Part shown: positions 8,879 through 64,000 of the stretch, in pieces
Layout of the letters: the number at the start of each line of letters is the position of its first letter
Position numbering within the stretch: position 1 is the first letter of the stretch
From: Aedes albopictus
Lineage: Eukaryota > Arthropoda > Insecta > Diptera > Culicidae
Length of the DNA: 64,000 nucleotides
Assembly (NCBI RefSeq): GCF_035046485.1
Contig: NC_085137.1
Location: 454,762,980-454,826,979, forward strand
Reading direction: 5' to 3'
Notes under the pieces: generated by a model
Told to the model about the DNA's origin: nothing
Databases searched by the model: none
Seen by the model: the letters and a program-made list of their open reading frames with translations, nothing else
Program-made: the position numbers and the translations under genes

Positions 8879-9065
8879 TTTTTTTTTTTTTATCTGTATT
8901 AACGAGATTTTTAGCCCTAGGCTAGTTCATCTCGGGACCCACGCTTTACTTCCCTTCCGAAGGAAGAACTCACATTTTGTGAGTTTGTCGGGAGTGGGAT
9001 TCGATCCCAGGTCCTCGGCGTGATAGTCAAGTGCTCTAACCATCACACCAGGTCCGCTCCACAAC
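8879..9065 (-). mobile_element. Full-length tRNA-derived SINE, poly(A) tail
   Basis: On the minus strand it starts with a tRNA-like head (A box TGGTGTGATGGTTAGAGC, B box GGGATCGAATCCC). A body ending GATGAACTAGCCTAGGGCTA follows, then AATCTCGTTAATACAGAT and a poly(A) tail. ACAGAATAA flanks both ends (8870-8878 and 9066-9074) as a target duplication. Partial copies of the same family lie at 11484-11588 and 38081-38129. Probably a Feilai-type mosquito SINE; name not verified. Confidence 0.85.
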
Positions 9066-11152: not shown

Positions 11153-12062
11153 ACACGCAGAAAAATCTACGGTAAAATTAACCATATTTGACGTAAAATC
11201 AAAAGGAATTTGACATTGTTTTGACCGCAATGAGAATGTATGATTGTTTTTACAATTCTGTATTGTTGTTCCTCAATCGGAAATCTTATTGAAATAACAA
11301 GAGTTTCAGACTTTTTCGTGCATTGTCAAGTTTGACATCTACAATATTATGGTAATTTCAAAAATATTTTTCTTTTGCTTTCAATAATATATTCATTGGA
11401 AAACAACATGCAAGATTCTTACTGAATAATCTGGGAATCTCCTGATTAATCAAATTTACAACGTTTCAAAGGATCTCACTCCCGACAAACTCGCGAAATG
11501 TAAGTTCTTTCTTCGGGAGGGAAGTAAAGCGTGAGTCCCGAGATGAACTAGCCTTAGGGCTAAAAATCTCGTTAATACAGAAAAAACTTCAAAAATGCCT
11601 TACCTTTTATACCACACTAATTGAAGGTAATTTTCAATTATGCTTTTAATTTGTAATAACTTTGCCTAACTTAAATATTATTCCATTCCCAGAATTTCCA
11701 AAGTAGTAAATGCTTTCCAAAACATTCTGCTTGGTTTGACAGAAGTGATCGAGGGATTCAGTGAAACATTTGCATCAAAATACTCTGTTTGATTTCATGA
11801 AGAATATTGTGGTTTTTACATTCCTATTCGACGTCGAGGGAATGGTAAGTTAAATTGACTTAGAATCAAAGTAGACATATGTTAATTTCTACAAGAGTCT
11901 CTATTAAACATTGGATTGTTAAATCGAACAGAATTTCACATGGATTTTAAATTGGAAAATCTGTTTGAAACTATAAGAATTCACATAATTTCAAAAGAAT
12001 TTCAATGTGTAAATTCAACAAACGTTATTTTAGTTTCAATGTGAACGCTTTTCTGTCCGTGT
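11153..12062. other. AT-rich region with weak inverted ends
   Basis: TACACGCAGAAAA near 11153 and TTTTCTGTCCGTGTA near 12048-12062 are imperfect inverted ends. They could bound a degraded DNA transposon of about 0.9 kb. A SINE fragment sits inside. No open frame with coding character. Confidence 0.3.
11484..11588 (+). mobile_element. 5'-truncated copy of the 8879-9065 SINE family
   Basis: Begins inside the B-box region (CTCCCGACAAACTCG) and matches the rest of the 8879-9065 SINE through GATGAACTAGCC and AATCTCGTTAATACAG, on the opposite strand. It lacks the A box, so it is a dead fragment. Confidence 0.75.
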
Positions 12063-17900: not shown

Positions 17901-18104
17901 GGCGTAGTGTAGGAGTATGTATTTAGGCTGTTCAGGCGTTTTGACCCACAATATTTATTTGATTCTATACCTTCTCCAAACATTTGAATTTTGGAAAACT
18001 GAAACCACAGAAACCCTTTGATGCAGAAACGATTGAGAAAAATCATTCAATTTTTTCCCTTACCCAAAGGCACAATAGAACATGTTCTAAATTTGTGAAA
18101 AAAA

Positions 18105-18190
18105 ATCGCTTTCTCGTCGGATTCGAACTCACGACTCCGTATTCGCCAAACCGGTGTTTTAACCAACTAAGTCACAGAACAAGTAACGAT
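18105..18190 (-). mobile_element. tRNA-like sequence (SINE head or tRNA pseudogene)
   Basis: The minus strand has an A box in GTGACTTAGTTGGTTAAAAC and a B box GTGAGTTCGAATCCGAC. The GTCGTGAGTTCGA segment is shared with the tRNA-like modules in the foldback elements at 33765-34450 and 43415-44592, so they may share an ancestor. Confidence 0.55.
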
Positions 18191-23197: not shown

Positions 23198-23543
23198 AAA
23201 AATCGACCGGACCTTCGGGTACGAGTTTTTAAAAAGAACTTTTCTGGCTGAAGGCCTGATCAAGAATGATTTTATTAACTTCCAAAGTGTTCTTCATTGG
23301 TTTGCTTATGACTACTTAGTTGCTATCGTGGTTGACCGGATAGGTGGTGTCTGGTGTCGCGCGATGTCAGCAGAACGTGGAATGCTGATGGGTCGCGCGA
23401 TTGTCGTCGTCGTCGTCGTTGATGTTGTTGTTGCTGTTGCTGTCTGTTGCTGTGCCCTGGGCGCGGGCAATGTGGAAATAATGCTTATGTTCGATATGGC
23501 TAAGTTCTGGGTTGATGATGGCGGTGTGGGCCGTTCAGTAACT
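23198..23543 (-). repeat. 3' LTR of gypsy element
   Basis: On the minus strand it begins AGTTACTGAACGGCCC and ends GGTCGATTTTT. It matches 30458-30806 at about 99%, with a GTC-repeat difference (five here, six in the other LTR) and a 1-nt indel near 23310. The tail of the env frame runs into it. Confidence 0.93.
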
Positions 23544-24196
23544 GCTCCCTCCTGAAGAACGGACCGTCCCGGTTCGGTTTGACTGGTTGCTTTTGCTGTG
23601 CATGAGGAATGCTTTATGGTCAGGTAGAGTATCGAAATGATGACGATGGTAAAAAGTATTAACGATATTCCAAAGGTTGATCGTTTCTGTTGCTCATGTA
23701 AAAAATTCAGCTGTTGTCGAGTTTGGAGATTGACTTCTTGCAGTTTTTGAAGTGTGAAATTAGTGCTTATGGTTTTGCAGTTGATTTCCAATCCGTTCAG
23801 CGGAATCATGATTGGTTGCTGCTTTGTGGTGTATTCAATGTCGATGAATGATGTTTGGTTGATGATAACGGTACAATTTCTGAAAAATATTAGCGTGTTT
23901 CCAGAAATGTTTCGGCTGGAGAGCCCACAATTGGATGTGATCGGAGTGCTCTCATTTCCAGTAATAATGATGTAGTTACTACTGATTCGCTTAACTCGTC
24001 TCTCCTCGGTGACTTCTATGAGGTCGCAGCTGCCTGATTTTCCTCGTAAAAGTTTCGAATAACAGGTGTCGCTGGAAACATCCTTAACGTGGTGTTCACT
24101 GCACATGATACTCTGTCCTATTCCTTCACATTCTCCAGTTATTAGAAATGTTGATAAATCGTTGTTGAGTGCCTCTGCATATTGAACATTAAGCAT
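23312..24196 (-). pseudogene. env: Gypsy env, C-terminal part (frame 2)
   Basis: Second part of the broken envelope frame. It carries the rest of the ectodomain with several Cys residues and N-glycosylation sequons. A hydrophobic membrane span follows (about residues 174-195, STFGISLILFTIVIISIL), then a Ser/Thr/Pro-rich tail. The last 77 or so codons lie inside the 3' LTR and include a Thr run encoded by the LTR's trinucleotide repeat. It overlaps the upstream frame by 55 nt in another phase, consistent with a single-base change in an A run near 24187. The Met at its start is therefore internal. Insect errantivirus Env is a baculovirus-F-like fusion protein. Confidence 0.75.
23544..23555 (-). 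other. Polypurine tract of gypsy element
   Basis: The minus strand reads AGGAGGGAGC directly before the 3' LTR start (AGTTACTG). This is the expected site for plus-strand DNA priming. Confidence 0.7.
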
Positions 24197-25119
24197 TTTC
24201 CATTTTTGATGACTGGCTCTAGTAGTTGATGGATGAAAACGTCTTTTCTCAGCAACGGGATCAGGATGATGAAAACGATTTTGTTGTCTTTGTGAATCAC
24301 TGCTAAATCTAAATATTCTATCACTTGATCGAAGCTTTCGATATTAATATTTTCACTTTCCAAAATTTTTGTTGCTTCGTTAAGTTCTTCACTGGATAAG
24401 ATATCTTTTGAAATGGTGTTAACTTTTGACATTTGTATTGCTTCAAATATATTGTTGACATGATTAGCAAGAAGATCGATATTAAGATTGAGGTTGAACA
24501 ATTCTTTAACAACTTTGATATCATCTGAGATATTTTTACCATTTATAAATTTTTGTCTAAAGTGTATAAAATTATTTTTGATAACATCTTGTTGATCGTT
24601 TACAATTTTAATGAGTCTGTTTAGTCTATCCTGGACTTTAAGATTAATCTTTATTTGTTCGTTGTTTTCTGTTACTAGAGCTTTATTTTGTTCAGACAAT
24701 GTGTTAAGTTGTGTATTAATTTTTACAAGATCATTGTTGTCAAGATTTCCAGTAATAACTTTAATCATATTGCCAATACCGTTAAAAAGTCCTCTTTTGT
24801 TTCTAGTAATGGGTACAATTTTTCTGTAAGAATGTTCAATCAAATCTAGCTTTTTATTCAATAGTATAATAGAGTCTTCTACTTTAAAAATCTTCAAGTC
24901 GTTAACAATCGTTCTGAGTTTTCTGAAAATTGGTTCTAAAGGTTTAGCATCAACTATGTGGAATATTTTGTGCGCTCCTATCTTCATTCTTCCGTTTCCA
25001 AGTTGTAGTGATATGAGTCCTGGGTTATTTTGTAAGTCGTAGATTTGTATATGGCTGTTGATTGTCGATGTCGCTACCGTCAGGCACATCCATGATACAA
25101 TTAGATTTATAGTTGCCAT
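24142..25119 (-). pseudogene. env: Gypsy env, N-terminal part (frame 1)
   Basis: The envelope frame begins 26 nt after the pol stop and would be expressed from a spliced RNA in related elements. A hydrophobic signal-like segment occupies residues 1-18. A basic furin-type site RNKR lies at residues 106-109, followed by GLFNGIGNMIK, as expected for a fusion peptide. A long heptad-like region follows at about 125-200, typical of baculovirus-F-like errantivirus Env. The frame then changes near 24187 and ends out of phase after about 20 foreign residues. The remaining ectodomain and membrane span are in the overlapping frame at 23312-24196. Whether the change is natural decay or an assembly error cannot be told from one copy. 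Confidence 0.8.
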
Positions 25120-25144
25120 TCTCTGTGGAAAGAGAATGTTTACA

Positions 25145-26680
25145 TTAGTGTTTTCGTTTTCGTTTCAGTTTGGATTTGTGGAATTTTATTCCAATTGAGG
25201 TTATAATAGTTTTGAATCTGTTTTCTCTTACTTTGACCTTTTTAAATTTTGGTTTTGTTTTTCTTTTGATGCCTTGAATAGTGTTAAATACCTCTTCATT
25301 TTCCTGGAAGTTCGGCTCCTTTTCTCTTGTTTTATTATGATAATCAACATTCTTTTTAGCATTTTTATCGAGTTTTAACATCACTTCATCTGTAATCTCC
25401 TGTCTATTCTCAAACAATCTGTCTAAATCAAGGGGTAAATCGTCTTCTTCGCGTTGTCCAAAAAGTATCTCGCAAGGCTTGTGTTGGTGTGCCGTATGTA
25501 TGGTTTTATTATAGAGACCGACAGCAATTTTGAATATTTGTTTCTGAGATAAATCGTCATACTTATCCTTTATGCAGCGAAAGATTTCAATCAGTGTTGA
25601 ATGGAATCTTTCGACGATGCCGTTGGATTCACTATGGTTTGAGGGTGTGTATTCTACTTGAATATCTAGTCTTTGGAAAAGTGATCGAATTTCTATGGAT
25701 TTAAGGGCCGGTTCATTGTCACAAACGATTTTCTTCGGAGTTGCATATCCGGTAATCAATTTAATTAAACCTGCTCTTACATCCGGAATTGATCGAGATT
25801 TAATATGAATAAGCATAGCATATCTAGAGAATCTGTCTACTGCGGTCAGGAAAAGATTGGGTTGTGCAATAAAAATATCTAAGTGAACTGTTTCGAAAGG
25901 TTTGTTAGGGATTTCTGGTCTATGTAGAGTGATATTGTACGGATGCCTTTCGTATTTGTTCTCCAAACACGATTCGCACAAATTAACAAATCGTTGAATT
26001 TGTCGTTTCATGCCTGGAAAATAATACTGCTTGATAATCTGGGCATGGTTTTCGGCAGCTCCTCTGTGCGCGCGGTCGTGCGTTTTCGAAATTATTTCAT
26101 TTTGCTCCTCGGAAGTGCGTAAATCTGTCAACATTTTCTGACTGATTCTCACTTTCAAGATTTTGGCACGACTGAAATAATTGCGATACACTATATTGAG
26201 GGTATTAATAAGAGATTCGTCGCACATGATACCATTTACTCTTTTTGGATTCATATAATCTTTAAAAATATTGAGAACTATGGCTACGGAAAAGTCGAAG
26301 CGAATAATAGTTCTTCTATGAATATTCGGAAATATTTCCTCATATTCAGTAGATTCAATGTCGCCCTTTTTCAATATTATTTGATTGCTGAAGAAGTTTA
26401 TGGGTAACTCTGTCATTTGAATCAAATCGCTAGCGTCAGATTCTGCAGAATGACATGTTTCGGCTTCTGAGGAATCTGTTGCATTATGTTCTTCGCTACC
26501 ATATGTTGCATGATCTGAAGAGTCAGATGTATCGTTAGCATTTACCTCATTCCTGATTCTGGAAAGTCCATCTGCAACGATATTTTGCTTACCTGGTCGA
26601 TACTTGACGTCATAATCGAACTCCTGTAAACGTAGTCTCCATCGAAGCATCTTATCGTTGGGGTCCTTTAAACTAAACAT
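25145..26680 (-). pseudogene. pol: Gypsy pol: RNase H end and integrase
   Basis: The frame is open from just after a stop at 26774-26776, in the same phase as the RT segment upstream. It starts in the C-terminal RNase H region (LRWRLRLQEFDYDVKYRPGK). The integrase follows with a His/Cys zinc-binding domain (H and H around HDRAHRGAAENH, then CESC). The catalytic core shows Asp in TVHLDIF, Asp in VCDNEP and Glu in GIVERFHS, the D,D,E triad. A basic C-terminal tail ends at 25145. Integrase as such is uninterrupted, but it can only be made as part of Pol, which is broken upstream. Confidence 0.85.
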
Positions 26681-26773
26681 GTACGTTAATGGCCTGTGAT
26701 CAGTGAATAAAGTAAACTTCTTGCCATACAGATATGGCCTAAAATATTTACAACCCCATGTGATTGCTAAAAA

Positions 26774-27394
26774 TTATTTTTCTATTACAGAGTATTTTTC
26801 CTCTGTTTTGGTGAGCGTTCTCGAAGCAAATGCAACTGGTCGATCTTGCCCAATTGGTCCCTGCGAAAGCACGGCACCAACAGCAAATTGACTAGCGTCC
26901 GTCGTCAGAATAAAGGGCTTCGTAAAGTCCGGGTACTGAAGTACGTGACTGCTAGTTAGCAAAATCTTACACTTATTAAAGGTTTCGATGAATTCCTTGC
27001 TATGTGTAAGTTTTTCTCCTTTTCTTAATTGGGTTGTGAGTGGCTTCACAATTTTCGCAAAGTGTTTTATAAATCGACGGTAATAACCTAGGGTTCCAAG
27101 GAAACCTCTAAGCTCTGTTTCCGTTTTTGGAATTGGCCAATTTTTGATTGCAACAACTTTGTCAGGGTTGGGTTTTACACCATCGGCCGTGACTAAGTGT
27201 CCTAAAAAGGCTACTTCCTTACATAAAAATTCAGATTTATCTAATTGAATTTTAAGGTTATATTTTCGCAATGCATCAAATACTTTGCGCAAGTTAATCA
27301 AATGTTCCTGATATGATGTTGAGTATACAATGATGTCATCCATGTATACTAAACATACTTTTCCAATTAAATCCCGTAGTACGTTATCCATCAC
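26774..27394 (-). pseudogene. pol: Gypsy pol: RT palm/thumb and RNase H start
   Basis: Contains the reverse transcriptase catalytic motif LVYMDDIIVY (YMDD at 27335-27346), the connection region (GFLGTLGYYRRFIKHFAKI) and the RNase H start (FILTTDASQFAVGAVL). It ends at an in-frame TAA (26774-26776), after which the same frame continues through RNase H and integrase. The break is therefore a nonsense change, not a frame change. Its start is a frame junction with the next segment near 27420. Confidence 0.85.
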
Positions 27395-27777
27395 CCTTTG
27401 GAAGGTGGATGGCGCATTCTTCCGAATGGCATTTTGAGAAATTCATATTTCCCATGTTCTACGGTAAAAGCAGTTTTTCTAATGTCTCTTGGGTTCACCT
27501 CAATTTGATGAAATCCCGAGGCGAGATCAATTGTAGAAAAATAATTACATCTTCCGAGCTTGTCTAGAACTTCAGTTATGTTCGGAATTGGATATTTGTC
27601 ATCAATTGTCTTTTCGTTGAGCTTTCTGTAGTCAACGACCAGACGCCACTTTTTCTTTCCTGAAGCGTCCATCTTTTTGGGTACAACCCAAATAGGTGAC
27701 GACCATGGAGAATTGGAGGGTCTTATGATGCCTTGGTTGAGCAAATCTCTAACTTGGCTTTGCACCTCTTCTTTCAA
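27391..27777 (-). pseudogene. pol: Gypsy pol: RT fingers/palm N-terminal part
   Basis: Typical Ty3/gypsy RT opening: [20 protein letters not shown], then [14 protein letters not shown], then [14 protein letters not shown] with the first catalytic Asp, then EFLKMPFG. Just after MPFG the phase changes near 27420 through a short deletion, and the frame runs into a stop at 27391. Upstream, a TAA at 27787-27789 separates it from the protease/linker segment in the same frame. Confidence 0.85.
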
Positions 27778-27786
27778 ACAAAATGG

Positions 27787-28374
27787 TTATCTATAGCTTT
27801 TTGTATACACAGGAATGTCATCTTTAGTGTCAATCCTATGTTTCACAACATTAGTAAACGTTAATTTTTCATTTTTAAGGTGAAAAATCTCTTGATAGTC
27901 AGATATCAATTTTACTAAACCAACTCGTTCTTCCTTATTCAGATGATCCAATCGTAACTGATCCATTAAATTTACGTGTACACTGCTATCAGAAACTAGT
28001 TCTGGAGGCGGTGTAATTTCAAAATTATTTTTCTCGATGCTACCTTTTAACATCTCTACTTCCGTGGGTTTATTGGTCATGTTGGTTATAACTAATTGAG
28101 TTTTAAAATTTTCGGCTTTGTATAAGCCAGAATGAACAAAGGCTTCATTGTTTAGAACGAGATCCTTTGAGAGAAGAAATTCTCCTTCTTCTTCACAAGT
28201 TGGCAGCTCAATCACACGCGTTTCATTTGCATGTAATTGGAATTTGAAAATTTCTGGAAATTTCTTTTGCATAATAATGTTTGCAAAAGGTAAATGAAGG
28301 GTGTTAGTGTGTACGGAAATGCTTGCCTGTAATTGGTTCAAGGACTCATATCCGATGAGTCCATCGGAAGTCAT
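27787..28374 (-). pseudogene. pol: Gypsy pol: protease C-terminus and PR-RT linker
   Basis: Begins with the protease C-terminal motif (DGLIGYESL) in a phase different from the protease start. The linker to RT follows and ends VYTKSYR at an in-frame TAA (27787-27789). The phase change lies near 28368, where one extra base in a C pair would explain it. Both lesions are seen directly. Confidence 0.8.
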
Positions 28375-28579
28375 AAATTAAAAAGATGAGATTTTCGGTC
28401 CCATAGAAAGGATTTAATTCTACAAAATGTGTTATTTGGCATCTACCTTCGACATTCTTTACTGTCATTGGTTTCAAAAGTTCTCGAATAAATCCCAAGT
28501 TTGCATGACGAGGACTAATAATGGATTTATTAGCGCCCGTATCATTTAAAAACTTTAAAGGTCCATTTTTACTATTCAC
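28346..28579 (-). pseudogene. pol: Gypsy pol: aspartic protease N-terminal part
   Basis: Contains the protease active-site motif FLNDTGANKS (DTG near 28535-28543). The open frame extends upstream to overlap the 3' end of gag in the -1 phase relative to gag, as in gypsy elements that express Pol by -1 frameshifting. I see no canonical slippery heptamer at the overlap. It runs out of frame after LIFLIYDF. Confidence 0.8.
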
Positions 28580-28608
28580 AGTTACGTATGGTATGAAATT
28601 AGTGGATT

Positions 28609-29892
28609 TCAGCTGGGTTTCTCTATAACTGCGGCTGTTTGAAAATTTACGTCTACATCGACGTTTTCGTTATACGAAGGGTCTTGATTTTGGTTTAGAT
28701 AATCTTGGAATTCTTCCGGAGGATATGGGATTTCAGGATTATCGTAATAATCATTATAATCTTCATATTGAGGGCCCACTTCCTGATTTTGTAACTCATT
28801 AGTAGGTTTTTGACTAAATCTACTTTGTTGAGTCCTATTTGAAATGTTGGAATATTGATTCTGTTGGTTATGGTTAGGTGGTCGACTCGCAAATCTGTTA
28901 GGAAAATTTCCTGGACGATTTGAAAAATTTTGTACTGCTCTATTTGGAAATGTTGCTTGTTGGTTAAAAGATGTATAGGATGTTCTATTTGGAGCGATTT
29001 GCGAAGAGTTCTGTGTTTTAGCGTTTCCTGCGATATTCATAAATGTTCTCGATGGTAGAGGGTTGTTAGATGGAGGATATACATGAGTTTGCATTACTTT
29101 CGGATTTCGTCGATCTTCAAAATCATAATCGCAATTTCTGCGCGCAAGCTTATTTGCCTTCTCATTAGCAAACTGATAAGCCTGGCATAAAGTTGTTGGC
29201 TGTAAAAGCCCTACATGAGACGAGTACGGCTCGTCTAGCCCGTCTATGAACTTCTCCAGACAAAGTTTGTCTGTGAACTTCACCAATTCGTCTGGATGTC
29301 TCCACTGGGCATCCATCTGAATGTGGGTCGATATTCCCGTGTAGCAATCTTTGATTGCTGTATAGAAGTTCGTTACCGAATTTCTGTTTTGTTTTAATGA
29401 AAAAAGTTTTTGTAATAATGTAGATAACTCACGTTTATCGCCGTAAATTATCTTTAATTGTTCTTTAATTTTGCTCCACACTAGCGGAGTACCACTGGAG
29501 GCAAGTAGATCATTAGCTTCACCGATAATTTTATTTCTCACCTCCATTAGCCAAAGGTCGTAAACGTCTGTGCCTATGATGTGTTTATACATCTGCATCA
29601 CTAGATCGGCGCAACTAATCCAGTGATTAATCTGTCTAGGATTGCCAGCAAATGTCGGCAAGTTTTTGATTAAATCAGGAATTTTCCCTTTTTGGCATTC
29701 TTCGTCTATATTTATCGTCGGATTCCTTGGCACAGCTGGTGCTGGAGGAATCAAATCCTGTTCCTGTCTTTCCTCTAAGTCTGCGATGTGCGCGTTACGC
29801 TCGCGCAACATCATACTAAGGTTCTCGATTTGCTGCTGCAAATCTTCGACCTGGTTGTCAGCCATATTTGCTGAACGCAGACCCGGTCTCAT
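28609..29892 (-). CDS. gag: Gypsy gag polyprotein, intact frame
   Basis: The only uninterrupted gene of the element, 427 codons from the first ATG; a second Met at residue 10 (MADNQVEDL) is an equally good start. Residues 12-45 are a predicted coiled coil. A capsid-like helical region follows (about 75-265, including LPTFAGNPRQINHW and the DGLDEPYSSHVG segment). The C-terminus is rich in Asn, Gln, Arg and Pro with no CCHC zinc knuckle. Lack of the knuckle and an Arg/Asn-rich nucleic-acid-binding tail are known in errantivirus Gag. It ends TGA at 28609-28611, overlapping the pol phase. Confidence 0.88.
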   Translation of the reverse strand: MRPGLRSANMADNQVEDLQQQIENLSMMLRERNAHIADLEERQEQDLIPPAPAVPRNPTINIDEECQKGKIPDLIKNLPTFAGNPRQINHWISCADLVMQMYKHIIGTDVYDLWLMEVRNKIIGEANDLLASSGTPLVWSKIKEQLKIIYGDKRELSTLLQKLFSLKQNRNSVTNFYTAIKDCYTGISTHIQMDAQWRHPDELVKFTDKLCLEKFIDGLDEPYSSHVGLLQPTTLCQAYQFANEKANKLARRNCDYDFEDRRNPKVMQTHVYPPSNNPLPSRTFMNIAGNAKTQNSSQIAPNRTSYTSFNQQATFPNRAVQNFSNRPGNFPNRFASRPPNHNQQNQYSNISNRTQQSRFSQKPTNELQNQEVGPQYEDYNDYYDNPEIPYPPEEFQDYLNQNQDPSYNENVDVDVNFQTAAVIEKPS

Positions 29893-30446
29893 TAAACAAA
29901 TGGAATGTTACACGCGTTTACAAAAATTCACAAGAAAAAAACACAAGATTTCAAAAATGTATTACACAAATATTCAACACACGAAAATGTTCTGACCCCA
30001 CGAAGATTCTTGCTTCTCTCCCTCACTCTCTTTTATCACTCTTCTATCACTTTCTTATTCAGGGAAGAATAAAAATGTTATCACCAAATGTGTTCTCGTC
30101 AATAAAGTTAATTTCCTTACTTAATAAACACTTAATCAAATCACTAAAAAAAAAATCTAACCTAAAAATAAAGGAAACTGGGGGACTCACCACAAATTGA
30201 CGATAATCCGTCGCCAACGTTTTCACGGATGAACTCCCGTTCGGATGCGCCGTGCTGTCGTCGCTCGTAGAATAAAAACGTCTTGTCCCTGGCACTATCC
30301 AATAGGCTGCTGCGATTCCGAAGCTGTTCCCTGGATTTTTCTCCCAATAGGTTGTCTGCTTGTCTGAATGCTGCTGGTCCCTGGTTGTCCAATGGGTGGA
30401 AGTTTTCACTAGCGGAGCTAAACGACTAACACTTTGTGCATCCTAC
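29893..30446 (-). other. Gypsy 5' untranslated leader
   Basis: About 550 nt between the primer binding site and the gag start. In the related elements this region holds packaging and splice-donor signals. I cannot pick the donor from sequence alone. Confidence 0.6.
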
Positions 30447-31207: not shown

Positions 31208-31452
31208 GGTCTCCAGTTAGCCTAGTGGTTAAGGCTATGGATCGCCAATCCAAAGACGGCGGGTTCGATTCCCGTTCCGGTCGGGAAGATTTTCTCGTCT
31301 CCCTGGGCATAATGTATCATTGTACTTGCCTCACAATATACAAATTCATGCAATGGCAGGTAAAGAAAGCCCTTCAATTAATAACATTAAGTTGAATCGA
31401 GGGAAGCCAAGTCCCAGTGGGGACGTAGAGCCATATAGAAGAAGAAGAAGAA
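31208..31452 (+). mobile_element. tRNA-derived SINE ending in (GAA)n, copy 2
   Basis: Same family as 2229-2493: A box in TAGCCTAGTGGTTAAGG, B box GGTTCGATTCCCG, a body containing CTCACAATATACAAATTCAT, and a (GAA)n tail. Perfect 10-bp target duplication GTATATGTAG at 31198-31207 and 31453-31462. The B box matches the tRNA consensus better than copy 1. Confidence 0.88.
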
Positions 31453-33750: not shown

Positions 33751-33764
33751 CTCCGTTATGCCTG

Positions 33765-34450
33765 TTGAAAATGCTTTGACATCCATGTGCACAACAGAAC
33801 ACGTGCTCGATGAACAAATTGAGATTTGAAATTATGAAAAGAAATCCACGTACTCCGGTGAGACTCGAACTCACGACTCCCAATTCGCTAGACGGGCGCT
33901 TCTATTCCTTCAAGCTACGGAGTCACTCGACTATCTCCGTCGCCAGCAGGCCCAGAACTGAACTCGATTCCACAATCGCACATGGTTATCTTCTTTTCAC
34001 AATCCAAACCCCCTTCGGATGGGATTAGATGAACATCTAACACATTGTCTGTTGTGCACATGTATGTCAAAGCGAGAGAGGAAGTTATTTTTAATTGTCG
34101 AGAGCTTCGGGCACAATGTGTTAGATGTTCATCTAATCCCATCCGAAGGGGGTTTGGATTGTGAAAAGAAGATAACCATGTGCGATTGTGGAATCGAGTT
34201 CAGTTCTAGGCCTGCTGGCGACGGAGATAGTCGAGTGACTCCGTAGCTTGAAGGAATAGAAGCGCCCGTCTAGCGAATTGGGAGTCGTGAGTTCGAGTCT
34301 CACCGGAGTACGTGGATTTCTTTTCATAATTTCAAATCTCAATTTGTTCATCGAGCACGTGTTCTGTTGTGCACATGGATGTCAAAGCATTTTCAACAGT
34401 GTAATTTCCCACATGGCTTGGTCAGCCAAAGCAAAATCAAGAAATTGACA
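33765..34450. mobile_element. Foldback element with a tRNA-like module in each arm, copy 1
   Basis: Arms of about 282 bp (33765-34046 and 34114-34397) are near-perfect reverse complements around a spacer of about 65 nt. A 53-nt extension lies only on the right (34398-34450). Each arm holds a tRNA-like module, on the minus strand at about 33855-33925 and the plus strand at about 34235-34312. The module has a T arm GTGAG/TTCGAGT/CTCAC, a 6-bp acceptor (ACTCCG with CGGAGT), a D-arm-like GCTT...AAGC and an Ala-type AGC in the anticodon position. A 13-bp duplication TCCGTTATGCCTG flanks it (33752-33764 and 34451-34463). No coding capacity. Confidence 0.8.
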
Positions 34451-34544
34451 TCCGTTATGCCTGCTGGCGCTTGAGCCCTGAACGACGATAAAGTAAAGAA
34501 TATCATTATGACTATTATAATCAAGCACAATGATTTTTCAGACG

Positions 34545-36645
34545 CATACAATCACAGAATCAAAGAAACAGAAGATCAGAGAATCAGAGAATTACCGAAT
34601 CGAAGGATCAGAGCGAGAATCAGAGAAAATCAGAGAAAATCAGAGAATCAGAGAAAATCAGAGAATCAGAGAATCAGTGAGTCAGAGAATCATAGAAAAT
34701 CAGAGAAAATAAGAGAATCAGAGAATCAGAGAATCGGAGAATCAGAGAACAAGAGAATCAGAGAATCAGGGAATCAGAGAATCAGATAATAAGAACCAGA
34801 GAATCAGAGAATCAGAGGGAATCAGAGAATCAGAGAATCAGAGAGTCAAAGAATCAGAGAATCAGAGGGAATCAGAGAATCAGTCAGAGAATCGGAGAAT
34901 CAGAGAATCAGAGAATCAGAGAATCAGAGAATCAGAGAATCAGAGAATCAGAGAATCAGAGAATCAGAGAATCAGAGAATCAGAGAATCAGAGAATCAGA
35001 GAATCAGAGAATCAGAGAATCAGAGAATCAGAGAATCAGAGAATCAGAGAATCAGAGAATCAGAGAATCAGAGAATCAGAGAATCAGAGAATCAGAGAAT
35101 CAGAGAATCAGAGAATCAGAGAATCAGAGAATCAGAGAATCAGAGAATCAGAGAATCAGAGAATCAGAGAATCAGAGAATCAGAGAATCAGAGAATCAGA
35201 GAATCAGAAAATCAGAGAATCAGAGAATCAGAGGGAATCAGAGAATCAGAGAATCAGAGAATCAGAGAATCAGAGAATCAGAGAATCAGAGAATCAGAGA
35301 ATCAGAGAATCAGAGAATCAGAGAATCAGAGAATCAGAGAATCAGAGAATCAGAGAATCAGAGAATCAGAGAATCAGAGAATCAGAGAATCAGAGATTCA
35401 GAGAATCAGAGAATCAGAGAATCAGAGAATCAGAGAATCAGAGAATCAGAGAATCAGAGAATCAGAGAATCAGGGAATCAGGGAATCAGAGAATCAGAAA
35501 ATCAGATTTCTGAGAATCATAGAATCAGAGAATCAGAGAATCAGAGAATCAGAGAATCAGATAATCAGAGAATCAGAGAATCAGATAATCAGAGAATCAG
35601 AGAATCAGAGAATCCGAAAATCAGGGAATCAGAGAATCAGAAAATCAGAGAATCAGAGAATCAGAGAATCAGAGAATCAGAGAATCAGAGAATCAGAGAA
35701 TCAGAGAATCAGAGAATCAGAGAATCAGAGAATCAGAGAATCAGAGAATCAGAGAATCAGAGAATCAGAGAATCAGAGAATCAGAGAATCAGAGAACCAG
35801 AGAATCAGAGAATCAGAGAATCAGAGAATCAGAGAATCAGAGAATCAGAGAATCAGAGAATCAGAGAATCAGAGAATCAGAGAATCAGAGAATCAGAGAA
35901 TCAGAGAATCAGAGAATCAGAGAATCAGAGAATCAGAGAATCAGAGAATCAGAGAATCAGAGAATCAGAGAATCAGAGAATCAGAGAATCAGAGAATCAG
36001 AGAATCAGAGAATCAGAGAATCAGAGGGAATCAGAGAATCAGAGAATCAGAGAATCAGAGAATCAGAGAATCAGAGAATCAGAGAATCAGAGAATCAGAG
36101 AATCAGAGAATCAGAGAATCAGAGAATCAGAGAATCAGAGAATCAGAGAATCAGAGAATCAGAGAATCAGAGAATCAGAGAATCAGAGAATCAGAGAATC
36201 AGAGAATCAGAGAATCAGAGAATCAGAGAATCAGAGAATCAGAGAATCAGAGAATCAGAGAATCAGAGAATCAGAGAATCAGAGAATCAGGGAATCAGGG
36301 AATCAGAGAATCAGAAAATCAGATTTCTGAGAATCATAGAATCAGAGAATCAGAGAATCAGAGAATCAGAGAATCAGATAATCAGAGAATCAGAGAATCA
36401 GATAATCAGAGAATCAGAGAATCAGAGAATCCGAAAATCAGGGAATCAGAGAATCAGAAAATCAGATTTCTGAGAATCATAGAATCAGAGAATCAGAGAA
36501 TCAGAGAATCAAAGAATCAGATAATCAGAGAATCAGATAATCAGAGAATCAGAGAATCAGAGAATCCGAAAATCAGGGAATCAGAGAATCAGAAAATCAA
36601 ATTTCTGAGAATCATAGAATCAGAGAATCAGAGAATCAGAGAATC
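34545..36645. repeat. Satellite array, 8-bp unit (GAATCAGA)n
   Basis: About 2.1 kb of an 8-bp unit, ragged at the left edge and then nearly uniform. Variant units (AGGGAATC, GATAATC, AAAATC, and an ATTTCTGAGAATCAT block) recur in the same order near 35470-35640, 36290-36470 and 36440-36615, showing higher-order duplications. Confidence 0.95.
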
Positions 36646-37669
36646 AGATAATCAAGAGAATCAAGAGAATCAAGAGAATCAAGAGAATCAAGAGAATCAA
36701 GAGAATCAAGAGAATCAAGAGAATCAAGAGAATCAAGAGAATCAAGAGAATCAAGAGAATCAAGAGAATCAAGAGAATCAAGAGAATCAAGAGAATCAAG
36801 AGAATCAAGAGAATCAAGAGAATCAAGAGAATCAAGAGAATCAAGAGAATCAAGAGAATCAAGAGAATCAAGAGAATCAAGAGAATCAAGAGAATCAAGA
36901 GAATCAAGAGAATCAAGAGAATCAAGAGAATCAAGAGAATCAAGAGAATCAAGAGAATCAAGAGAATCAAGAGAATCAAGAGAATCAAGAGAATCAAGAG
37001 AATCAAGAGAATCAAGAGAATCAAGAGAATCAAGAGAATCAAGAGAATCAAGAGAATCAAGAGAATCAAGAGAATCAAGAGAATCAAGAGAATCAAGAGA
37101 ATCAAGAGAATCAAGAGAATCAAGAGAATCAAGAGAATCAAGAGAATCAAGAGAATCAAGAGAATCAAGAGAATCAAGAGAATCAAGAGAATCAAGAGAA
37201 TCAAGAGAATCAAGAGAATCAAGAGAATCAAGAGAATCAAGAGAATCAAGAGAATCAAGAGAATCAAGAGAATCAAGAGAATCAAGAGAATCAAGAGAAT
37301 CAAGAGAATCAAGAGAATCAAGAGAATCAAGAGAATCAAGAGAATCAAGAGAATCAAGAGAATCAAGAGAATCAAGAGAATCAAGAGAATCAAGAGAATC
37401 AAGAGAATCAAGAGAATCAAGAGAATCAAGAGAATCAAAAGAATCAAGAGAATCAAGAGAATCAAGAGAATCAAGAGAATCAAGAGAATCAAGAGAATCA
37501 AGAGAATCAAGAGAATCAAGAGAATCAAGAGAATCAAGAGAATCAAGAGAATCAAGAGAATCAAGAGAATCAAGAGAATCAAGAGAATCAAGAGAATCAA
37601 GAGAATCAAGAGAATCAAGAGAATCAAGAGAATCAAGAGAATCAAGAGAATCAAGAGAATCAAGAGAAT
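36646..37669. repeat. Satellite array, 9-bp unit (GAATCAAGA)n
   Basis: About 114 near-perfect copies of a 9-bp unit that differs from the neighbouring 8-bp array by one added A. Only one clear variant (CAAAAG, near 37437) is seen. Because 9 is a multiple of 3, the minus strand reads as Ser-Leu-Asp or Leu-Leu-Ile repeats without stops for over 340 codons. These are not genes. Confidence 0.95.
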
Positions 37670-43402: not shown

Positions 43403-43414
43403 TCCTTGAGGATT

Positions 43415-44592
43415 GTTGAAAATGCTTTGACATCCATGTGCACAACAGAACATGTGCTCGATGAACAAATTGAGATTTGAAATTATGAAAAGAAATCCAC
43501 GTACTCCGGTGAGACTCGAACTCACGACTCCCAATTCGCTAGACGGGCGCTTCTATTCCTTCAAGCTACGGAGTCACTCGACTATCTCCGTCGCCAGCAG
43601 GCCTAGAACTGAACTCGATTCCACAATCGCACATGGTTATCTTCTTTTCACAATCCAAACCCCCTTCGGATGGGATTAGATGAACATCTAACACATTGTC
43701 TGTTGTGCACATGTATGTCAAAGCGGGAGAGGAAGTTATTTTTAATTGTCGAGAGCTTCGGGCACTGCCTTCCAATCACTTATTGGTATGGCAATTAGTG
43801 TGCAGTCGGACTCTCGACGGGTCGGTCCTCGGCCGACCGAATACGGTAAGGGTGACCGTAGCACCTTACAAATGTCAATTTCTTGATTTTGCTTTGGCTG
43901 ACCAAGCCATGTGGGAAATTACACTGTTGAAAATGCTTTGACATCCATGTGCACAACAGAACATGTGCTCGATGTTGTGCACATGTGTGAACATGTTGTG
44001 CACATGGATGTCAAAGCACTTTCAACAGTGTAATTTCCCACATGGCTTGGTCAGCCAAAGCAAAATCAAGAAATTGACATTTGTAAGGTGCTACGGTCAC
44101 CCTTACCGTATTCGATCGGCCGAGGACCGACCCGTCGAGAGTCCGACTGCACACTAATTGCCATACCAATAAGTGATTGGAAGGCAGTGCCCGAAGCACT
44201 CGACAATTAAAAATAACTTCCTCTCCCGCTTTGACATACATGTGCACAACAGACAATGTGTTAGATGTTCATCTAATCCCATCCGAAGGGGGTTTGGATT
44301 GTGAAAAGAAGATAACCATGTGCGATTGTGGAATCGAGTTCAGTTCTAGGCCTGCTGGCGACGGAGATAGTCGAGTGACTCCGTAGCTTGAAGGAATAGA
44401 AGCGCCCGTCTAGCGAATTGGGAGTCGTGAGTTCGAGTCTCACCGGAGTACGTGGAGTTCTTTTCATAATTTAAAATCTCAATTTGTTCATCGAGCACAT
44501 GTTCTGTTGTGCACATGGATGTCAAAGCATTTTCAACAGTGTAATTTCCCACACGGCTTGGTCAGCCAAAGCAAAATCAAGAAATTGACATT
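43415..44592. mobile_element. Large foldback element with a tRNA-like module in each arm, copy 2
   Basis: About 1.18 kb. Two arms of about 560 bp (43415-43975 and 43977-44537) are near-perfect reverse complements with almost no loop. A right-only 55-nt extension lies at 44538-44592. The outer part of each arm equals copy 1 at 33765-34450, including the tRNA-like module (minus strand about 43505-43580, plus strand about 44370-44450). The inner part (about 43720-43930 and complement) is absent from copy 1. A 12-bp duplication TCCTTGAGGATT flanks it (43403-43414 and 44593-44604). No coding capacity. Confidence 0.82.
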
Positions 44593-44593
44593 T

Positions 44594-44705
44594 CCTTGAG
44601 GATTTCCTATGGAACTCCTGGATGATCCCCAAAGAACTTGTGGAGAAATCCCCGATGAAATTCTGGAGGAATTTCTGAGGAACTTTTAAAGATATTCGGA
44701 ATAAT
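44594..44705. repeat. Degenerate GAATTCC-type repeat, continuation
   Basis: Continues the tract interrupted by the foldback insertion; the target duplication TCCTTGAGGATT is itself repeat sequence. Confidence 0.6.
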
Positions 44706-60042: not shown

Positions 60043-60689
60043 TTTTTTTTATTCTTAATGACTTAACCTAATTTACAGCTCTATTGTCCACTAGGGCACT
60101 ACGTGAGCGACTTCAATTGACAGCTGCACCTACAATATTGTACAGCGCCTAGATGTAGGGAATCGCGCCACTTGGGCGGTGGCTTCTATATTCGTCTGTT
60201 TTCCACTATAACTCAGTCAAATTTGAACCAATTGACATAACTTTTGGAATGTGATGAGATAGGTGTAGTATCTACCCGTGTACAACATTTCGAGTCAATT
60301 GGTTCAAAACCGACTGAGTTATAGTGGGAAACAGACGAATATAGAAGCCACCGCCCAAGTGGCGCGATACCCTATTCTATTTTACTCTATTGAACTGCCT
60401 GCCTTTCTGCTGCTTTCACTTTTCTACTACATGGAATGATGAGCACAAGGATGATGGATGGCCGTTGTTCCTTTCCAGTCCGATTGGGGGTCCATTATGA
60501 GTAGCAAAAGTTCGCCGATTTCCAGGTATCCGGGTCCGTTTGAGCCATGGGGCTCAGAAGAGAGTCAGTGTCAGCCGCTCTCGGTAAAGAGCAGCTGACG
60601 AAAAATTGCAAGTGCCGGGGCTGGGAATCAAACCCATGACCATCCGCATATGAAGCGAACGTGTGACCAACTACGCCACGGGCCCCGAC
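60043..60689 (-). mobile_element. tRNA-derived SINE with nested MITE
   Basis: 13-bp target duplication TCGTTTCACTGTT at 60030-60042 and 60690-60702. The minus strand starts with a good tRNA-like head (GGGGCCCGTGGCGTAGTTGG, B box GGGTTTGATTCCC, then AGCCCCGGCA). A body with TCAGCTGCTCTTTACCGAGA follows, and it ends in poly(A) (T run at 60041-60050). A TA MITE interrupts it at 60158-60372. Without that insert the SINE is about 430 bp. Confidence 0.75.
60158..60372. mobile_element. TA-flanked 215-bp palindromic MITE
   Basis: Ends GGGAATCGCGCCACTTGGG and CCCAAGTGGCGCGATACCC, flanked by TA (60156-60157, 60373-60374). The arms extend about 80 bp as near-perfect complements through TTCTATATTCGTCTG and CCACTATAACTCAGT. 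Confidence 0.8.
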
Positions 60690-63525: not shown

Positions 63526-63937
63526 AATAGGAAGCAAGCAGCTGCGGTTTTGCTAAATTGCCGATAGTGGCGCTTTTTTGATAAATGCGGTAAACGTGAT
63601 AACAGTGTAAACAAGCAGAAAAGCTTGCGCTACGGAATCATAGACGGCGCTCGTGTTCCATGTGTTTTTCACATATACAGCGGCGCCGCCTGGCACCTAT
63701 CCACTCGAAACATCATGCGCAACACGGGTGCAAATAGGAAGTAAGCAGCTGCGCTTATGCTAAAGTGCCGGTAGTGGCGCTTTTCTGATAAATGCGGTAA
63801 ACGTGATAACAGTGTAAACAAGCAGAAAAGTTTGCGCTACGGAATCATAGATGGTGCTCGTGTTCCATGTGTTTTTCACATATACAGCGGCGCCGCCTGG
63901 CACCTATCTACTCGAAACATCATGCGCAACACGGGTG
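63526..63937. repeat. Tandem duplication, 207-bp unit, two copies
   Basis: 63526-63732 and 63733-63937 match at roughly 95% (both contain GATAAATGCGGTAAACGTGA, CATATACAGCGGCGCCGCCT and CATCATGCGCAACACGGGTG). Starts about 140 nt after the small gene. No coding capacity; function unknown. Confidence 0.85.
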
Positions 63938-64000
63938 GAAAATGCCAGTCAGAAAAAAAGAAGTAAACAACTTGAAATTTGTATGGTGATGTAATCAATT

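Follow-up and report, generated by a model that had tools for sequence, protein, structure and literature searches.

The 64,000-nucleotide stretch of the Aedes albopictus genome analysed here (the window; NC_085137.1, positions 454,762,980 to 454,826,979) holds two insertions of one repeat family, copy 1 at 33764-34450 and copy 2 at 43415-44592. Both are built from pieces of a 511-bp unit (U, with positions in it prefixed accordingly) that bears a tRNA-like module and in which no long open reading frame (ORF) was found. A first-pass annotation had singled out copy 1 as a foldback element with a tRNA-like module in each arm; copy 2, the 511-bp tandem unit and an older 40-nt inverted repeat lie beyond what it described. 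The parts of the two copies, together with a diverged relative, are as follows.

33752..33763: copy 1, target-site duplication on the left, TCCGTTATGCCT; 13 bp with the G at 33764 that it shares with the element
33764..34114 (-): reverse arm of copy 1, running from unit position 455 down to 105, without tail
33773..33812: older 40-nt inverted repeat inside the copy 1 arm; partner at 34034-34073, 85%
33850..33924 (-): tRNA-like module of the copy 1 reverse arm; ARAGORN Ala-AGC, Rfam 31.1 bits
34113..34450 (+): forward arm of copy 1, covering unit positions 171 to 508, with tail; 2-nt overlap with the reverse arm
34237..34311 (+): tRNA-like module of the copy 1 forward arm; ARAGORN, Rfam
34398..34450 (+): tail of copy 1, 53 nt, on this side only
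34451..34462: copy 1, target-site duplication on the right; ends at 34463 if counted as 13 bp
43403..43414: copy 2, target-site duplication on the left, TCCTTGAGGATT
43415..43974 (-): reverse arm of copy 2, 1.10 units long, starting at unit position 455, without tail
43501..43575 (-): tRNA-like module of the copy 2 reverse arm; ARAGORN, Rfam
43975..43993: filler of 19 nt where the arms of copy 2 meet head to head
43994..44592 (+): forward arm of copy 2, 1.17 tandem units, with the tail at its end
44083..44593 (+): full 511-bp unit U (repeat period); its final base is the first base of the right duplication
44377..44451 (+): tRNA-like module of the copy 2 forward arm; ARAGORN, Rfam
44538..44592 (+): tail of copy 2, 55 nt
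44593..44604: copy 2, target-site duplication on the right
18070..18154 (-): diverged sequence related to the tRNA-like 3' half and to the inverted repeat, 83% over 35 nt

The inverted arms of copy 1 (33762-34048 and 34113-34399) are each 287 nt long and differ at 1/287 sites, which bears out the near-perfect palindrome of the first-pass annotation. Its 13-bp target duplication is likewise exact, TCCGTTATGCCTG being present at 33752-33764 and again at 34451-34463; the final G is common to the element, so the length is 12 or 13 bp, and a chance 12-mer match at these borders is expected at about 1e-5 given equal base frequencies. The one-sided 53-nt extension is also real, since the last 53 nt of copy 1 have no mirror on the left side. 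ARAGORN finds a tRNA-like fold in each arm, in opposite directions as had been proposed, and makes four tRNA-Ala calls in the window; the Rfam tRNA score of 31.1 bits stands against a cut-off of 29, so that the module barely qualifies as a tRNA, and the 75 nt folded on their own do not give a cloverleaf as minimum-energy structure. Copy 2 is the longer insertion, has its own 12-bp duplication, and contains in its right half a head-to-tail junction with the 511-bp period. Both copies start exactly at U455, and their tails are 53 and 55 nt long, respectively. The forward unit of copy 2 differs from its own reverse arm at 4/456 sites. In the full unit, the older 40-nt inverted repeat (U146-185 and U407-446) flanks the tRNA-like module at U295-369, and the unit folds far better than its shuffles (z -6.5). 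The relative at 18070-18154 has a local score of 102, compared to a maximum of 66 in 200 shuffles, and its sequence suggests an older history of the family. A 3.1-kb array of AATCAGAG-type repeats at 34550-37669 adjoins copy 1.

Searching the 1.344-Gb genome with the arm as query gave 43 matches, with 40 of 385 candidates scored. Twelve stretches were fetched, and these yielded ten further insertions (L031+L032, L033, L034, L035, L036, L037, L038+L039, L040, L041 and L042), eight of them two-ended and two (L041 and L042) in a single orientation. A search with the tail, using a query that included the target duplication of copy 1, gave 41 matches with 40 of 104 candidates scored; 30 loci were fetched, one of which is copy 1 itself, leaving 29 new insertions. 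The window and both searches together provide 41 distinct insertions, of which 27 are two-ended, 11 have a single orientation (L041, L042, L048, L049, L050, L052, L055, L064, L065, L067 and L068), and three (L044, L056 and L066), which run up to the border of the sequence fetched, are placed in neither group. Palindromic and single-arm forms do therefore coexist, a point that the first-pass annotation had marked for checking. The insertions are head-to-head arrays of a 511/512-bp unit, plus single-orientation copies truncated at the 5' end. Several hold head-to-tail units while others hold less than one unit per arm; the mapped insertions have reverse arms of 0.39-5.84 units and forward arms of 0.50-15.96 units, and total 1.35 to 21.8 units, with the count of about 22 in the big array resting on the assembly. 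Three insertions carry about 300-340 nt of other sequence between unit pieces (L053:1960-2298, L060:1076-1372 and L071:772-1093). Some pieces are only 88-93% like the unit, and so older or variant subfamilies exist. In another insertion, about 11.7 kb of minisatellite-rich DNA with a 12-bp period is nested (L038:2349 to L039:4098), the 13-bp duplication of that insertion flanking the whole, nested DNA included; the ORFs in the nested segment look, from their sequence, like translations of the minisatellite.

Several regularities emerge from this sample. An exact target duplication of 11-15 bp is present in 27/27 two-ended insertions (11 bp in 14, 12 bp in seven, 13 bp in four, and 14 and 15 bp in one each). 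Duplications of at least 10 bp flank 4/11 single-orientation copies (L049, L052, L065 and L067), and none was found at the other seven. The copies examined are thus not all miniature inverted-repeat transposable elements (MITEs) with short duplications of fixed length, the outcome that the first-pass annotation had named as fatal to its own account, and its statement that the element is neither a standard short interspersed element (SINE) nor a MITE stands. Duplications that vary in length, a defined tailed end, and truncated single-orientation copies next to palindromic ones make reverse transcription the likely route. Moreover, every two-ended insertion has one tailed and one tail-less end (27/27), although the fair count for this pairing is 10/10 because the 17 tail-search insertions are tailed by choice of query. 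The tailed end falls at U505-510 and the tail-less end at U455-463 in the ten mapped insertions, and the tail-less end falls at U453-467 in the tail-search set, as judged from untrimmed BLAST ends; of the two single-orientation copies from the arm search, L042 has its start at the tailed site, whereas that of L041 is at the tail-less one. In addition, the outer pieces always face each other head to head, a reverse piece on one flank and a forward piece on the opposite one, and the pair of unit positions at which they meet differs in 10/10 mapped insertions (U105/171, 407/423, 34/34, 272/240, 454/198, 468/403, 454/26, 260/50, 22/362 and 332/249); they overlap there by 0-8 nt, except in copy 2, where 19 nt of filler lie between them. 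The differing junctions mean that the palindromes are made anew at insertion, and they rule out an inherited palindrome, that is, a master copy with its left end at a transcription start. Hence the foldback, which had been taken to be the element itself, is a product of insertion, and the element is the 511-bp unit.

Comparisons of variants, among them one of 58 aligned unit pieces from 13 sources, suggest that each insertion was copied from a single template. The 11.1-kb array L031+L032 (C1:120748973-120760103 of the assembly, with an 11-bp duplication) has 17/18 compared full units identical and a single base change in the remaining one; all are 512 nt long, the extra base lying near U60 in both orientations and being present in no other aligned source. 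A29 and T128 are found in all three units of L034 that cover those sites, and at U417 both arms of copy 1 have G while the three pieces of copy 2 covering the site have A. Across 29 insertions, 39 private variants are common to opposite arms, compared to a mean of 12.2 and a maximum of 31 when arms are re-paired at random, so that 0/5000 re-pairings reached at least 39 shared variants; the distance version of this test, on ten insertions, gave 97/5000. One-arm variants number 86 in the re-pairing test; part of these are spurious, since BLAST pieces overrun the junction and inflate the one-arm counts (A40 24, L053 19, L046 10, and L051 10), and the inflation works against the reading of one template per insertion, not for it. 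A point against that reading is that, of the 4/456 sites at which the forward unit of copy 2 differs from its reverse arm, it stands alone among the compared pieces at three.

The first-pass annotation knew of no class that would fit, but the anatomy described above matches that of Penelope-like elements. In the available parts of PMC3846280 and PMC8969392, these elements are described as forming tandem or partial-tandem copies with pseudo-long terminal repeats (pseudo-LTRs) and an adjacent, shorter inverted copy, with target duplications of variable length and, optionally, a tail that measures about 30-40 bp and sits on only one of the inverted copies. PMC3846280 gives duplications of 8-10 bp where present and, in Pen2a_Av, an inverted copy that is 37 bp shorter and a tail of 31 bp. 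A lizard Penelope-like protein cuts and extends both target strands in vitro, and reverse transcription begins from two internal start sites, which correspond to the tail, with no difference in start site shown between the strands; the same text, as far as available, regards further steps of insertion as yet to be validated (PMC11167929). What we find here is shared with Pen2a_Av and with Poseidon of Anolis (PMC3846280; PMC11167929; PMC8969392), namely tandem or partial-tandem copies with pseudo-LTRs, a shorter inverted copy placed head to head (27/41 insertions), a one-sided tail, a variable duplication, and 5' truncation (11/41 insertions in single orientation). The family differs from those elements in having a unit without a long ORF, a tRNA-like module where no hammerhead was found, a tail of 53-55 nt rather than 30-40, and about 22 units in one insertion. 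We therefore think it likely that this is a young non-autonomous retroelement family moved by Penelope-type machinery. By its anatomy, the family is best seen as working like a Penelope-like element, formal membership resting on the partner enzyme, a reverse transcriptase plus GIY-YIG protein encoded in the element itself or in a partner that has its ends, and it is taken to be a selfish element.

Insertion might then proceed as follows. A staggered cut, to which the 11-15 bp duplications attest, would open the target, and both exposed 3' ends would prime reverse transcription within the unit RNA. Two alternative start sites would be used, by one strand near U508, so that the tail is copied, and by the other at about U455-465, so that it is not, in keeping with the end positions observed. 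The enzyme would often run more than once round the unit to give the tandem copies seen in the arrays, perhaps because its RNA template is circular, and the two complementary DNAs would meet head to head at the variable points that we have mapped, with a short overlap or filler. Extension of only one strand could account for the single-orientation, 5'-truncated copies. Two primed strands copying the same template sequence fit better than template switching by one enzyme. The suggestion in the first-pass annotation, template switching during reverse transcription of an RNA polymerase III transcript, is thus retained in part: reverse transcription is likely, but switching fits less well, and TTTT begins 10 nt after the tRNA-like module in all four window arms, so that ordinary transcription by polymerase III would be expected to terminate long before the tail. 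For the same reason the module would be a poor promoter for the whole unit unless it is read through; alternatively, it could signal cutting and ligation, or be carried along as a passenger.

Several observations weigh against mobilisation of this type. An autonomous Penelope-like element with the same tail or unit was not found, a negative that has no GIY-YIG (PF01541) search result behind it, and both the tail (53-55 nt) and the duplications (11-15 bp) exceed the examples in the published text available (30-40 and 8-10). Hammerhead motifs have been reported in Penelope-like elements, in their pseudo-LTRs, yet none was found in the unit here, Rfam having returned none in the window, in copy 2 including the unit junction, or in the unit alone, and a core-motif search on two joined units having found none either. 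The lizard enzyme shows no strand difference in the available account of it, and the strict pairing of one tailed with one tail-less end is accordingly not predicted; findings other than this pairing fit the scheme presented there (PMC11167929). Junction points are not wholly random, since six insertions (copy 1 of the window, L044, L045, L057, L070 and L072) share a breakpoint at U167-175 and two (L034 and L036) one at U454; the former lies in the inner part of the 40-nt inverted repeat and is perhaps an enzyme stop. L071 holds an additional inner forward/reverse pair. AT-richness of targets, a further trait of Penelope-like elements, is suggested in only one set of three (74% in the eight non-window two-ended insertions of the arm search, 54% for the window copies, and 62% in the 17 tail-search insertions, with a window background of 62%). 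Finally, the sample comes from the 40 of 385 and 40 of 104 candidates that were scored, and the full-length arm-search matches listed are all arms of 100% identity. For the tail, a stem-loop is predicted whose strength does not exceed that of shuffled sequences (z -0.4 to -1.4), and we rejected it as a landing site for reverse transcriptase on that basis.

A tRNA-type SINE family moved by an ordinary long interspersed element (LINE), with inverted copies arising by twin priming on two RNAs, would explain the tRNA-like module, and the 11-15 bp duplications and 5'-truncated single-orientation copies would suit LINE target-primed reverse transcription equally well. Twin priming, however, is an occasional inversion at varying internal points, whereas the inverted arm starts within about U453-467 in 27/27 two-ended copies; tandem arrays, which reach 16 units in one direction here, are not SINE-like; the TTTT 10 nt after the module would end a polymerase III transcript before the tail; and the window copies have no poly(A) or simple-repeat end. 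We consider this origin improbable. A tRNA SINE has a tRNA-related polymerase III promoter near its 5' end and a 3' end that is a poly(A) or simple repeat or is shared with a LINE; in the present unit a tRNA-like module is present, at U295-369 of 511. The long, near-perfect inverted arms that suggest a foldback DNA transposon or MITE moving as a palindrome come with unequal ends, one side carrying 53-55 nt extra, and with junctions, arm lengths and unit numbers that vary, 11-15 bp duplications and coexisting single-orientation copies, rather than with the equal inverted termini and fixed-length duplication of such elements, so that this view has almost nothing to recommend it. Misassembly is a common hazard with palindromes and with long arrays of identical units, and the count of about 22 units does depend on the assembly; nevertheless, each of the 27 two-ended loci has an exact duplication of its own and two unlike ends, and the arms of the window copies differ at 1/287 and 4/456 sites, so that mirrored or over-expanded reads are a scarcely credible source of the family.

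Among the closest known systems, the Twin SINE of Culex has two tRNA-related units in one mosquito element, but in direct orientation and without mirror arrays. Animal retrozymes, in the available text of PMC7229834, are short tandem units that bear a hammerhead and are expressed as circles, and a primed circular template with a Penelope-like partner has been proposed for them. They share with the present family short non-coding tandem units, a self-paired RNA and duplications longer than 4 bp (PMC7229834). The hammerhead that defines them was, however, not found in our unit or across the unit junction, and the word 'inverted' is absent from the main text of PMC7229834, so that a classical retrozyme, meaning a hammerhead-bearing circular-RNA retroelement, is a very improbable identity. 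Helenus and other TRIMp3 elements resemble the family in having a tRNA-like sequence in the repeated part of a non-autonomous retroelement, but are described in the available text as having two LTRs, a primer-binding site, a polypurine tract and 4-5 bp duplications (PMC10886601); identity with them was rejected because direct LTRs with a 4-5 bp duplication are not seen here.

Within the preferred scheme of Penelope-type mobilisation, the repeated reading of the unit could also involve a linear multimeric transcript of an older array in place of a circular monomer. Genomic arrays exist, young arrays are homogeneous and their transcripts would give homogeneous daughters, and a multi-copy mRNA has been proposed for Penelope-like elements in the available text of PMC11167929. 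All 18/18 compared units of the 11.1-kb array, however, are 512 nt long by virtue of the extra base near U60, and a single monomer is the simpler explanation for private variants common to both arms. We regard the linear template as a real contender that falls somewhat short of an even chance. A more specific proposal is that the tRNA-like module replaces the hammerhead, with host tRNA processing and ligation enzymes circularising unit RNA from tandem transcripts, and with a Penelope-type enzyme reading the circle repeatedly from both cut strands, one always starting past the tail and the other before it. We put this forward as a tentative and rather unlikely extension. Among the matches listed in the open-access literature, no tRNA-bearing Penelope-like element is described; the precedent for small-RNA modules in repeated ends is in LTR elements (Helenus; PMC10886601, in the part available), with none for Penelope-like elements among those matches.

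If the module does replace the hammerhead, target-primed reverse transcription of the rolling-circle, two-stranded kind would be recorded directly in this genome. The family offers a case for testing whether a tRNA-like module can stand in for a ribozyme in Penelope-like elements. With its short unit and many recent copies, it is also a natural assay of Penelope-like insertion, in which the pairing of one tailed with one tail-less end in 27/27 two-ended copies points to a rule for strands that share a template. A more practical consequence is that the output of tRNA gene finders can include false tRNA-Ala genes at such insertions, as with the four in the window.

Pattern scans of bacterial and archaeal, and of viral, collections returned nothing, as expected for an animal repeat. 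Matches to microRNAs in Rfam were all below the gathering score and were set aside as a generic effect of a long hairpin. Elsewhere in the window, an LTR retrotransposon at 23312-29907 (-) has reverse transcriptase/RNase H, integrase and Gypsy/Baculo_F envelope-like pieces in separate frames, along with a weak gag-like piece that falls below the Pfam cut-off. A tRNA-like sequence at 31218-31275 (+), with an Rfam score of 37.7 bits, is perhaps a SINE head and has a 93% relative at 2228-2402, and ARAGORN makes a tRNA-Met call at 60614-60681 (-) for which Rfam has no match at gathering score. A 207-bp unit occurs twice at 63526-63941, the two being 94% alike, and an inverted pair at 8888-9000 and 11473-11586 (114 bp, 92% alike) is possibly a short inverted-repeat element.
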